Origin: Lentisphaeria bacterium
Lineage (GTDB): Bacteria; Verrucomicrobiota; Lentisphaeria; Victivallales; UBA1829
Assembly: GCA_017456805.1 (NCBI GenBank)
Contig: JAFTIQ010000095.1
Coordinates: forward strand, 1 to 6,740
Length of the DNA: 6,740 nt
Reading direction: 5' to 3'
Part shown: positions 1-1,839 of the stretch, piece by piece
How positions within the stretch are numbered: position 1 is the first letter of the stretch
Layout of the letters: the number at the start of each line of letters is the position of its first letter
Translations under genes and position numbers: made by a program
The notes under the pieces: generated by a model
Databases searched by the model: none
What the model was told of the DNA's origin: nothing
Seen by the model: only the letters and a program-made list of their open reading frames with translations

Positions 1-149
1 CCAAAATCAAAGCTGCCGCTCTCCTCTATGTTTCTGCTGCTGACGATAAACAGGCATTGCAGGAAACCGCTGAGAAGGCTCCCGATTTTCTTCTTTTTAC
101 CGCTTCCAGCGCAAATCTGAAACTGATTGACGATGAAATCCTCAAATAA
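1..149 (+). CDS. C-terminal fragment of an unidentified protein (5' end outside the window)
   Basis: An open frame runs in from the left edge (first full codon at base 3) and ends with TAA at 147-149. It encodes about 48 residues, reading KIKAALLYVSAADD near the start and ending LKLIDDEILK. The pattern suggests strand (ALLYVSA), helix (DKQALQETAEKA), strand (DFLLFTAS), helix (NLKLIDDEIL), so the end of a soluble alpha/beta domain. I do not recognise the family. The stop overlaps the next start in a TAATG arrangement, so the gene is very probably co-transcribed and translationally coupled with the PBP-pedestal and SEDS genes downstream and may share their role in envelope growth, but that is inference from position. 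It does not look like MreC, MreD or a transpeptidase end. Confidence 0.6.
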   Translation, partial: KIKAAALLYVSAADDKQALQETAEKAPDFLLFTASSANLKLIDDEILK

Positions 150-730
150 TGGAAGATCCTGACGCTCAAGATTTCCGGAAAAAAAGCGGCTGGATCATCA
201 TTCTGATCCTTCTCTGGGGCTTTTTTGCCCTGACAAGCGTATTTTATTTCAGTATTCTCAAACGTTCCGAATATCAGGCAAAAGCCCGGGAAACCGCTTG
301 GCGTCAGGGGATACTGCCCGCTCTCAAAGGGAAAATTTATTCCTCCGACGGAACCGTTCTTGCCGCTTCAAAACTGGAATTTTTTCTCATCTGGGATAAA
401 AAACATATCGGAGATTCTGTGCAGGAAATCCTCGGACGCCCCATCAGAAACGGCGGAAAAATTTCCGATTCCGAACTTTTAAAACTGGAAGCGATCACCC
501 GGAGATACCCCAGAAATCTGCGGATCAAAACCATTGAACAGCGGAATACCTCCCTCTTCCTGACAAAAATGGAAGAAAAATACCGGAGTGTTTTGACGGG
601 ACAGGACGGGATTTTTGTGGTGATGTTCGACCGTTACGGACGGCGGGTCCCGGGAACGTTGAAAGTGATCCGTCAGCCGGTTCCGGGAAAATCTGTCACG
701 CTGACTCCGGAAGAGGAGGCCGGACAATGA
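149..730 (+). CDS. Class B PBP-like protein with membrane anchor and pedestal domain only, no transpeptidase domain
   Basis: The 193-residue protein has a short cytoplasmic N-terminus, one transmembrane helix (about residues 14-36) and an extracytoplasmic domain. Residues 54-72 (GILPALKGKIYSSDGTVLA) match the hallmark of class B penicillin-binding proteins after the anchor, usually written RG-x-IYDRNG-x-x-LA. Residues 149-167 (LTGQDG, then DRYGRRV) and 175-186 (RQPVPGKSVTLT) match the segment that normally closes the pedestal and leads into the transpeptidase domain at LTID-x-x-LQ. The protein ends seven residues later, against about 550-700 residues for complete family members. The SxxK, SxN and KTG motifs are therefore absent, and it cannot be a transpeptidase. 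In known pairs (PBP2-RodA, FtsI-FtsW) the pedestal contacts and activates the SEDS polymerase, so I infer an accessory activator for the SEDS protein encoded next. The start codon overlaps the upstream stop (TAATG) with no good ribosome site, suggesting coupled translation. Confidence 0.8.
   Translation: MEDPDAQDFRKKSGWIIILILLWGFFALTSVFYFSILKRSEYQAKARETAWRQGILPALKGKIYSSDGTVLAASKLEFFLIWDKKHIGDSVQEILGRPIRNGGKISDSELLKLEAITRRYPRNLRIKTIEQRNTSLFLTKMEEKYRSVLTGQDGIFVVMFDRYGRRVPGTLKVIRQPVPGKSVTLTPEEEAGQ
714..719 (+). promoter_or_regulatory. Ribosome binding site of the SEDS gene, inside the pedestal gene
   Basis: A perfect AGGAGG lies 7 bases before the ATG at 727. The same bases encode the Glu-Glu near the C-terminus of the pedestal protein. 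Together with the ATGA stop/start overlap at 727-730, this sets the start of the SEDS gene and indicates coupled translation of the pair. Confidence 0.8.
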
Positions 731-1839
731 AAGAACGGAAGAATATTTTATGGAATCTGATCATCGGACTTCTGGTCATCGGGATCGGCGGCTGTGCAGC
801 GGTCTATTGTGCAAGAGCATACGGAGAGGATCCCTGGTATTTTTCCGGACGGCAAATGCTCTGGCTGACCATCGGCGTTTTTCTCTTCTGGGGAACAGCC
901 TGCATCCCTTATCCGAAATTGAAACTTGCAGCGGTTCCGGCAGTAATAATATCCCTGATCGTTCTTGCACTTACAGCGGTCTGGGGGGTTAAAATCAATA
1001 ATATGAACGGCTGGATCCCCATTCCCTTTACCGGGATCCGTTTTCAGCCCTCGGAAATTGTCAAACCTGCCTATCTCCTGCTTCTGTGCATGCTGGCGGT
1101 CAAGGAGGATTGGAGCGAAAAAAAACGGTTCCTTTTCTGTCTGCTTCTGACCGCTCTTTTCTGCGGTCTGATCCTGTTTCAGCCGGATTTCGGAACGGCG
1201 ACGATCTATGCCTGTATGCTTCCGCTGGTGCTTCTCTGCGGCGGTTTCCGGAAACGGTACACCCTGCCGATCTTCTTCGGCTGGATCCCGCCGGCAGTTC
1301 TGTTTGTTCTTCTGCATCCTTATGCATGGCGGCGGATCGTGGCGTTTCTGAATCCTTCGGATGACCATTTGGGCGCGAGCTGGCACATCAACCAATTCCG
1401 GATCACCATGGCAAACGGCGGCTGGCTGGGAGCGGAGGATCCGGGGGCAATCTGGGCAAATGCATATCTGCCCTATTCCCACAGTGACTCTGTTTTCGCC
1501 TCACTGGTGGAAGCTGCCGGATTTACGGGGGGCGCGCTGGTGCTTGCGGGATTTTGTGTGATGATCATACTGTTCCGGAAAGCGGCGCTGGAAACAAGAG
1601 ATAAAAATGCCCGGCTCTTTCTGTTCAGTGCCGGGCTTATGCTCATCGTGCAGGCATTTCTGCACATTGGAGTGAATGTAACGATTATTCCGCCGACAGG
1701 ATTGCCTTTGCCGTTTTTCTCATACGGCGGCAGCAATCTTGCCGGGGTTATGCTCCTGTTGGGAGCGGCATGTTCCGCTTACAGGAGCACTTCTTCAGAA
1801 TCCCAGATTGATCCCGAGACTGTGAAGGAAGACGAATAA
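727..1839 (+). CDS. SEDS-family peptidoglycan glycosyltransferase (FtsW/RodA/SpoVE family)
   Basis: This 370-residue polytopic inner-membrane protein has about ten hydrophobic helices, usual for the family. SEDS proteins polymerise lipid II into glycan strands at the outer face of the cytoplasmic membrane. Visible family motifs are FQPSEIVKPA (106-115), QPDFGT (152-157), the extracytoplasmic loop with NQFRITMANGGWLG (222-235) followed by LPYSHSDSVFASLVEAAGF (248-266), and PPTGLPLPFFSYGGSNL (322-338). Aligned from memory to E. coli RodA, the functional residues are kept: W96, E110, K113, D154 and the essential loop aspartate D254 (HTDFIF in most members, HSDSVF here). The usual GAxRW motif is changed to NMNGW. 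The gene overlaps the pedestal gene by ATGA, so it probably works with that protein. Pairing with a PBP2-like pedestal hints at RodA rather than FtsW, and no dcw-cluster genes are nearby, but I would not fix the symbol. The 3' end overlaps the convergent transporter gene. Confidence 0.93.
   Translation: MKERKNILWNLIIGLLVIGIGGCAAVYCARAYGEDPWYFSGRQMLWLTIGVFLFWGTACIPYPKLKLAAVPAVIISLIVLALTAVWGVKINNMNGWIPIPFTGIRFQPSEIVKPAYLLLLCMLAVKEDWSEKKRFLFCLLLTALFCGLILFQPDFGTATIYACMLPLVLLCGGFRKRYTLPIFFGWIPPAVLFVLLHPYAWRRIVAFLNPSDDHLGASWHINQFRITMANGGWLGAEDPGAIWANAYLPYSHSDSVFASLVEAAGFTGGALVLAGFCVMIILFRKAALETRDKNARLFLFSAGLMLIVQAFLHIGVNVTIIPPTGLPLPFFSYGGSNLAGVMLLLGAACSAYRSTSSESQIDPETVKEDE
1795..1839. other. 45-base convergent overlap of the SEDS and transporter coding sequences
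   Basis: The + strand SEDS gene ends with TAA at 1837-1839 and the - strand transporter gene ends with TCA (TGA on its own strand) at 1795-1797, so the two share 45 coding bases. The shared stretch encodes the hydrophilic tail of the SEDS protein (SESQIDPETVKEDE) on one strand and the last hydrophobic residues of the transporter (about LFVFLHSLGINLGF) on the other. No hairpin followed by a T-run is visible for either transcript, so the two messages probably overlap at their 3' ends. Confidence 0.85.

Follow-up and report, generated by a model that had tools for sequence, protein, structure and literature searches.

The window examined here, a stretch of 6,740 nucleotides from a Lentisphaeria bacterium (assembly GCA_017456805.1, contig JAFTIQ010000095.1), carries near its start a pair of overlapping genes. 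These first two complete genes are open reading frames (ORFs) of 193 and 370 amino acids (aa) on the forward strand, at positions 149–730 and 727–1839, which overlap in the four bases ATGA and are probably translationally coupled. SEDS enzymes are thought to function jointly, as a single unit, with a class B penicillin-binding protein (PBP) that makes the cross-links. The gene at 727–1839 encodes a SEDS glycosyltransferase of a third lineage (named SEDS3 here), and the gene at 149–730 encodes a membrane-anchored class B PBP pedestal, which ends where the transpeptidase (TPase) domain should begin.

The original prediction had described the shorter protein as a membrane anchor, a hallmark KGKIYSSDG motif and a pre-transpeptidase segment with a stop before the catalytic domain, and ORFs, alignment and profiles bear this sequence-level reading out. 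In the predicted structure, a hydrophobic N-terminal helix spans model residues 4–37, which would provide the single transmembrane helix of a class B PBP, and the pedestal (dimerisation) fold follows after it. KGKIYSSDG (326–352, forward strand) is the counterpart of the RGxIYDRxG anchor motif of E. coli PBP2, with which it aligns, as it does with the equivalent segment of E. coli FtsI and of full PBPs from two Lentisphaeria genomes. The protein ends right after PVPGKSVTLT (677–706, forward strand), which resembles the last pedestal segment (GxDVxLTxD) of full PBPs as judged by eye, the placement by the aligner being unreliable there. In profile searches, the protein scored just under the cut-off of PF03717 PBP_dimer (E 5.5e-4; 20.8 versus 24.4 bits) and matched stretches within the initial ~220 positions of two NCBIfam models, PBP2/MrdA (E 4e-10, its best NCBIfam match) and SpoVD (E 6.4e-7), both far below the whole-protein cut-offs. 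A fold unrelated to the PBP pedestal had been considered beforehand; structure prediction gave a PBP pedestal fold, with 6pl5_B as the top Foldseek match, and the best structure match stops at PBP3 residue 222. No TPase domain with SxxK, SxN and KTG motifs was found in the short protein, which ends ahead of this domain and whose sole SxxK and KSG strings (residues 35 and 12) fall in the N-terminal helix. Neither protein of the pair showed a PF00905 match, and the pair does not unite polymerase and transpeptidase in one complex, as a SEDS–class B PBP synthase does.

The distribution of the gene was analysed across the 197 genomes returned by the class search (G001–G197; handles from G198 on are taken as outside Lentisphaeria). 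A class-wide profile (A2) gave matches in 134/197 genomes at E 1e-12, the full PBPs of many genomes matching too. Based on matches in open frames below 400 aa, of which a small number are truncated where the contig stops, and with the addition of G161, the pedestal gene was counted in 120/197 genomes; it is found in the near-closed genomes G086 and G196. Its homologues include 13 protein clusters of 191–195 aa, and ten pedestal pairs with at least 79% identity showed ratios of nonsynonymous to synonymous substitution rates (dN/dS) between 0.09 and 0.31. Because of these 13 clusters and 120 class genomes, a chance origin of the observation is excluded; a pseudogene or frameshift was ruled out by the same counts together with the low dN/dS. 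The pedestal gene is widespread and maintained across much of Lentisphaeria. In the window's clade, the protein measures 191–195 aa, compared with a length of about 235 aa for many other class members, with ~40 residues lost from its middle. Outside the class, no pedestal-only gene in an open frame below 400 aa occurred among the matches listed for a 387-genome sample of the phylum, the shortest matching open frame measuring 455 aa (G392; among matches listed at E 5.9e-11 or better). A protein search with the class-wide alignment, which scored 7997 candidates and leaves room for distant or independent cases elsewhere, returned 20 proteins, namely 18 pedestal-only proteins and two partial longer PBPs. 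PF03717 alone was a poor detector and found the pedestal in one of three genomes.

To describe the genomic context, we read 43 wide loci selected from strong matches, near-closed genomes and distant matches, of which 41 extend at least 1 kb downstream. A SEDS ORF on the same strand is the directly following gene in 37 of these 41, and thus no TPase-coding remnant follows the pedestal. The alternative set against the original prediction, relatives with a full-length PBP at this locus and a frameshift or early stop in the window, did not come true; relatives encode the short protein beside SEDS, and the genomes inspected have separate loci for complete FtsI and PBP2. In one of the four exceptions (L161) a SEDS is present, but the ORF calls overlap; the other three are the loci of G080, G006 and G007 (see below). 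No TPase gene was seen in the module formed by the pair and the genes that often precede it (see below) in the loci read.

The 370-aa protein matches PF01098 at 229 bits (cut-off 26.4) and has the putative catalytic aspartate, and on both counts it belongs to the SEDS family. It remains below the equivalog cut-offs for RodA (225.6 versus 336.7 bits) and FtsW (213.8 versus 337.5 bits); the Lentisphaeria FtsW of L114 likewise stays under the latter (303.1 bits). In a tree of 105 sequences, comprising 65 pedestal-adjacent SEDS, 38 other Lentisphaeria SEDS and E. coli FtsW and RodA, all 65 pedestal-adjacent proteins form one clade separate from the other Lentisphaeria SEDS and from both E. coli proteins (SH support 1.0; ultrafast bootstrap 100 in a thinned set of 35 + 27). 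The window protein falls outside the E. coli RodA clade and outside the E. coli FtsW group, itself weakly supported (0.259). E. coli is the sole representative of other phyla in this tree. Of 20 extra SEDS loci, 18 chosen from 17 genomes counted as pedestal-negative plus those of G080 and G006, 16 were not SEDS3 and four fell inside the SEDS3 clade (n=69, support 0.875 after their addition). Three of these four (G088, G062 and G033) have a pedestal or pedestal fragment (diverged, short or cut) directly upstream, so some genomes counted as negative do carry the module; the fourth is the unlinked copy of G080. Judged from these sequences, SEDS3 is a lineage distinct from RodA and FtsW.

The residues W96, E110, K113, D154 and D254, which were said at the outset to be retained by the SEDS protein, are all present; they align with W138, E150, K153, D197 and D297 of E. 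coli FtsW and are kept in 64–65 of the 65 pedestal-adjacent SEDS. The putative catalytic aspartate (D254, 64/65) is followed by a serine that marks the lineage (D254–S255, 1486–1491, forward strand), found in 65/65 SEDS3 versus phenylalanine in 38/38 other Lentisphaeria SEDS. Changes at W138, Q147, P196, G199, Y242 and D297 are described as inactivating E. coli FtsW (PMC8765783), and the corresponding residues are conserved in 64, 65, 64, 63, 63 and 64 of the 65 SEDS3, respectively. Taking the cavity residues together (these six as well as G371 and Y379–G381), conservation amounts to 61–65 of 65. Two positions deviate: A135 of FtsW is replaced by Met in 60/65 (Met93 in the window), and R243 by Ala, Val, Ile, Leu, Gly or Met in 65/65 (Ala200 in the window), a position occupied by Gln or His in RodA. 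At the site in extracellular loop 4 (ECL4) that corresponds to A234 of E. coli RodA and A270 of E. coli FtsW, the window protein carries T227 (1405–1407, forward strand); Thr occurs here in 42/65 SEDS3 and Ala in 15, and Ala in 38/38 other Lentisphaeria SEDS. The A234T exchange is reported to increase wall synthesis by the Rod system in vivo, but not polymerisation by the purified fusion (PMC6207328), and the equivalent exchange to leave E. coli FtsW partly defective and Caulobacter FtsW hyperactive (PMC8078798). The threonine is no more than a hint that activation may be altered, perhaps with a bias of the enzyme to its active state. As a separate observation, Lentisphaeria SEDS of the FtsW type do not have the P196 and Y242 of E. 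coli FtsW, reported as dominant-negative sites, and carry K/R/H and E/M there in 14/14 proteins compared (L013, L014, L015, L096, L097, L099, L100, L102–L106, L118 and L125), unlike SEDS3, which mostly keeps both.

Exactly three PF01098 matches were present in 22/25 pedestal genomes, while G003 and G143 have four, including fragments, and G007 has one. Genomes counted without a pedestal have two SEDS or fewer in 50/77 cases (43/48 for G063–G197). G001–G003, the genomes nearest to the window among those analysed, encode two PF00905 proteins each, and only two PF00905 matches were also found in 14/22 further genomes. Both matches lie in open frames of 617–665 aa in G001–G003 and in G086, a near-closed genome. 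In G001 and G086, the adjacent genes identify the two as FtsI and PBP2 (in G086 by gene order only). FtsI of G001 was named by its position after mraZ, rsmH-like and ftsL-like genes (gene names without a score were assigned by reading), and its PBP2 follows mreC- and mreD-like genes and scores 444.7 bits against a cut-off of 455; RodA of this genome exceeds its cut-off and lies beside a purA-like gene. No PF00912 (class A PBP) or YkuD matches were found in G001–G003. Given two class B PBPs and neither of these families, FtsI or PBP2 would have to supply any cross-links of SEDS3 glycan in G001–G003, within the limits of these families and provided that the assemblies are complete. GT51 proteins are rarer in pedestal genomes (26/120 versus 37/77 others; odds ratio 0.30, Fisher p 1.6e-4, uncorrected for kinship). 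A run of 13 consecutive handles, G103–G115, has GT51 and, by this count, no pedestal. Extra PF00905 matches in short open frames were seen in G196, G197, G118, G073 and G101; the third match of the near-closed G196 (L121, 7300–8106) was judged by reading to be a secreted protein resembling class D beta-lactamases.

Taken together, sequence, predicted structures and phylogeny establish both identities, the co-inheritance of the two genes, the kept putative catalytic aspartate and most cavity residues, the absence of the TPase domain, and the presence of intact FtsI and PBP2 at other places in the genomes inspected. The pair has the parts of RodA–PBP2 minus the TPase. Most simply, the two genes would encode a third SEDS complex dedicated to polymerisation under activation by the pedestal, while cross-links are either added in trans by FtsI or PBP2 or not added at all; we assign this a probability of about 0.62. 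SEDS3 would be a membrane glycan polymerase and its partner, encoded just before it, a class B PBP cut down to helix and pedestal. In RodA–PBP2, the PBP2 helix is described as packing on transmembrane helices 8–9 (TM8–9) and the pedestal on ECL4, and breaking the pedestal–ECL4 contact as abolishing RodA stimulation in vitro (PMC8078798). The short protein may dock on SEDS3 in the same way, helix against TM8–9 and pedestal on ECL4, and would thereby turn on lipid II polymerisation while adding no cross-links. The strands made by SEDS3 would then be cross-linked in trans by FtsI or PBP2, or stay uncross-linked. The role of SEDS3 may overlap with that of class A PBPs, which are absent from the three genomes nearest to the window.

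Several observations weigh against such a complex, the strongest being that G006 and G007 retain a pedestal-only gene (L180, 4674–5363, and L073, 7849–8520, respectively) with no SEDS beside it. The near-closed G007 (about 2 Mb) has one SEDS match, in the RodA clade, and G006 has two SEDS, of which the one read is not SEDS3. The pedestals of the two genomes show a dN/dS of 0.088, a rough value since dS is 1.85. Because of this low dN/dS without an adjacent SEDS, and with the single SEDS of G007 in the RodA clade, the pedestal must have another function there or act on another SEDS, and it may therefore have a role without SEDS3. In G080, pedestal and SEDS3 are not linked: SEDS3 lies on one contig and the pedestal with an mraZ-like gene on another (L194, L178), the only such case among the loci read. 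Furthermore, SEDS3 deviates at the A135 and R243 positions, where substitutions in FtsW are reported to be dominant-negative, and because of these differences its substrate or regulation could be altered. Within G001–G062, two SEDS or fewer occur in only 7/29 genomes counted as pedestal-negative. YkuD enzymes in 19/27 genomes mean that cross-linking in trans is not confined to PBPs class-wide, and GT51 proteins are present as well in 26 of the 120 pedestal genomes.

Two of the competing explanations concern what the pair does. The short protein could be a regulator instead of an activator, a free-standing pedestal in competition with PBP2 or FtsI over RodA, FtsW or the regulators of these, or one that keeps SEDS3 inactive until displaced. 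Its retention at low dN/dS in G006 and G007 and the loss of ~40 middle residues in the window's clade are in keeping with this idea; however, its position directly before a single-lineage SEDS with conserved putative catalytic residues in 37/41 loci fits a stoichiometric partner better than a decoy, and we consider a regulator unlikely. The same doubt applies to a different product of SEDS3, either from a modified or non-peptidoglycan lipid-linked substrate or a glycan meant to stay uncross-linked, for which no TPase would be needed. The serine after the catalytic aspartate, the exchanges at A135 and R243 and the lack of a TPase gene in the modules read speak for it, whereas SEDS3 keeps the rest of the cavity positions that were mapped for E. 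coli FtsW, and FtsW itself varies at some of these sites in Lentisphaeria.

The remaining two explanations concern the missing domain and are far less probable. A split class B PBP, with the TPase half encoded elsewhere as a separate protein, could draw on the extra PF00905 matches in short open frames of five genomes, but the one in G196 appears to be a beta-lactamase-like protein, G001–G003 and 14/22 further genomes have only two matches, and those of G001–G003 and G086 lie in full-length frames, identified as FtsI and PBP2 by their neighbours in G001 and G086; we regard this as very improbable. Least credible of all is that the PBP gene has decayed or been truncated, or that it is an artefact of assembly. 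The domain does end abruptly, and three assemblies with the pair (SIG79, RGIG3871 and RGIG5373) are metagenomic, yet the constant length in 13 clusters, the presence in 120 class genomes and in two near-closed ones, the low dN/dS and a protein end at the domain boundary all oppose it.

Upstream of the pedestal, an mraZ-like gene is found in 28/41 loci with room, and the three such proteins tested all exceeded the Pfam MraZ cut-off. This second mraZ-type gene often heads the module (L001, 9200–9712, and equivalents in other loci), and in G001 it is distinct from the mraZ of the division and cell wall (dcw) cluster. Among 29 loci that contain an mraZ-like gene, 23 show a small ORF between it and the pedestal gene, with a single hydrophobic stretch and encoding ~90 aa in L001 (9732–10001); four module copies of this one-helix protein showed no Pfam family over cut-off. 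The window begins inside such a gene, of which the C-terminal 48 codons and the stop are present (3–149, forward strand). Its TAA overlaps the pedestal ATG as TAATG, and by eye it resembles the corresponding ORF of L001–L003.

Compared with known systems, the pair is most like RodA–PBP2 (MrdB–MrdA) of the elongasome, also a SEDS protein with a single-helix protein bearing a PBP pedestal, as reflected in the top Foldseek match. Unlike RodA–PBP2, it has no TPase domain, its SEDS stands outside the RodA clade, and the loci read show no linkage of the module to mreCD; G001 encodes RodA and PBP2 separately. The frequent module order (mraZ-like gene, small one-helix protein, pedestal, SEDS) recalls mraZ ... 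ftsL–ftsI ... ftsW of the dcw cluster. In contrast to that cluster, no rsmH or mur genes were seen between the module genes, its mraZ is a second one, the beginning of the dcw cluster, with full ftsI, is at another place (L107 in G001, L123 in G086), and no Pfam FtsL model was matched by those small proteins that were tested. It is reported that a class B PBP can matter through its mere physical presence, apart from its TPase activity, as for S. aureus PBP1 S314A (PMC7617827, PMC8078798), and PBP1 TPase activity to be essential in methicillin-sensitive S. aureus (PMC9426605). Unlike the natural short protein, these TPase-inactive class B PBPs are laboratory mutants of full-length proteins. With class A PBPs (GT51), SEDS3 may share the function of an extra glycan polymerase, although it belongs to a different Pfam family.

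Each part of the pair comes from a known family, whereas our searches of the open-access literature listed no description of the TPase-less partner or of the third SEDS lineage; the original prediction, too, had known of no example. A survey of dcw clusters across the Planctomycetes–Verrucomicrobia–Chlamydiae superphylum reports high conservation in Lentisphaerota, and its accessible parts do not mention a third SEDS (PMC12283558). In the published excerpts available, point mutations were used to address whether the pedestal is sufficient for SEDS activation. Here the truncation appears to have arisen naturally and to have been retained across much of a bacterial class, which suggests that strand building and cross-linking are separable in nature. 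The pair would allow a direct test of whether the pedestal alone suffices and could show how a glycan polymerase runs with no transpeptidase bound to it. This is relevant to the way in which beta-lactams, by targeting the transpeptidase, uncouple polymerisation from cross-linking. More tentatively, an ancient third SEDS lineage with a TPase-less activator, often with its own MraZ-type gene and small membrane protein, might form a polymerisation-only synthase, biased towards activity through ECL4, which makes uncross-linked glycan or represents the SEDS answer to class A PBPs.

On the 3' side of the pair, the window encodes on the opposite strand a sodium-dependent transporter, HisB, a 412-aa protein with no NCBIfam match, an agmatine deiminase-like protein and a carbamoylputrescine amidase-like fragment. 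The pair itself was found in three Lentisphaeria metagenome assemblies, SIG79, RGIG3871 (roe deer) and RGIG5373 (sheep). The contig of RGIG3871 stops inside the transporter gene; in SIG79 (cut by the contig end) and RGIG5373, transporter, HisB and the 412-aa protein follow the pair in the same order as in the window.
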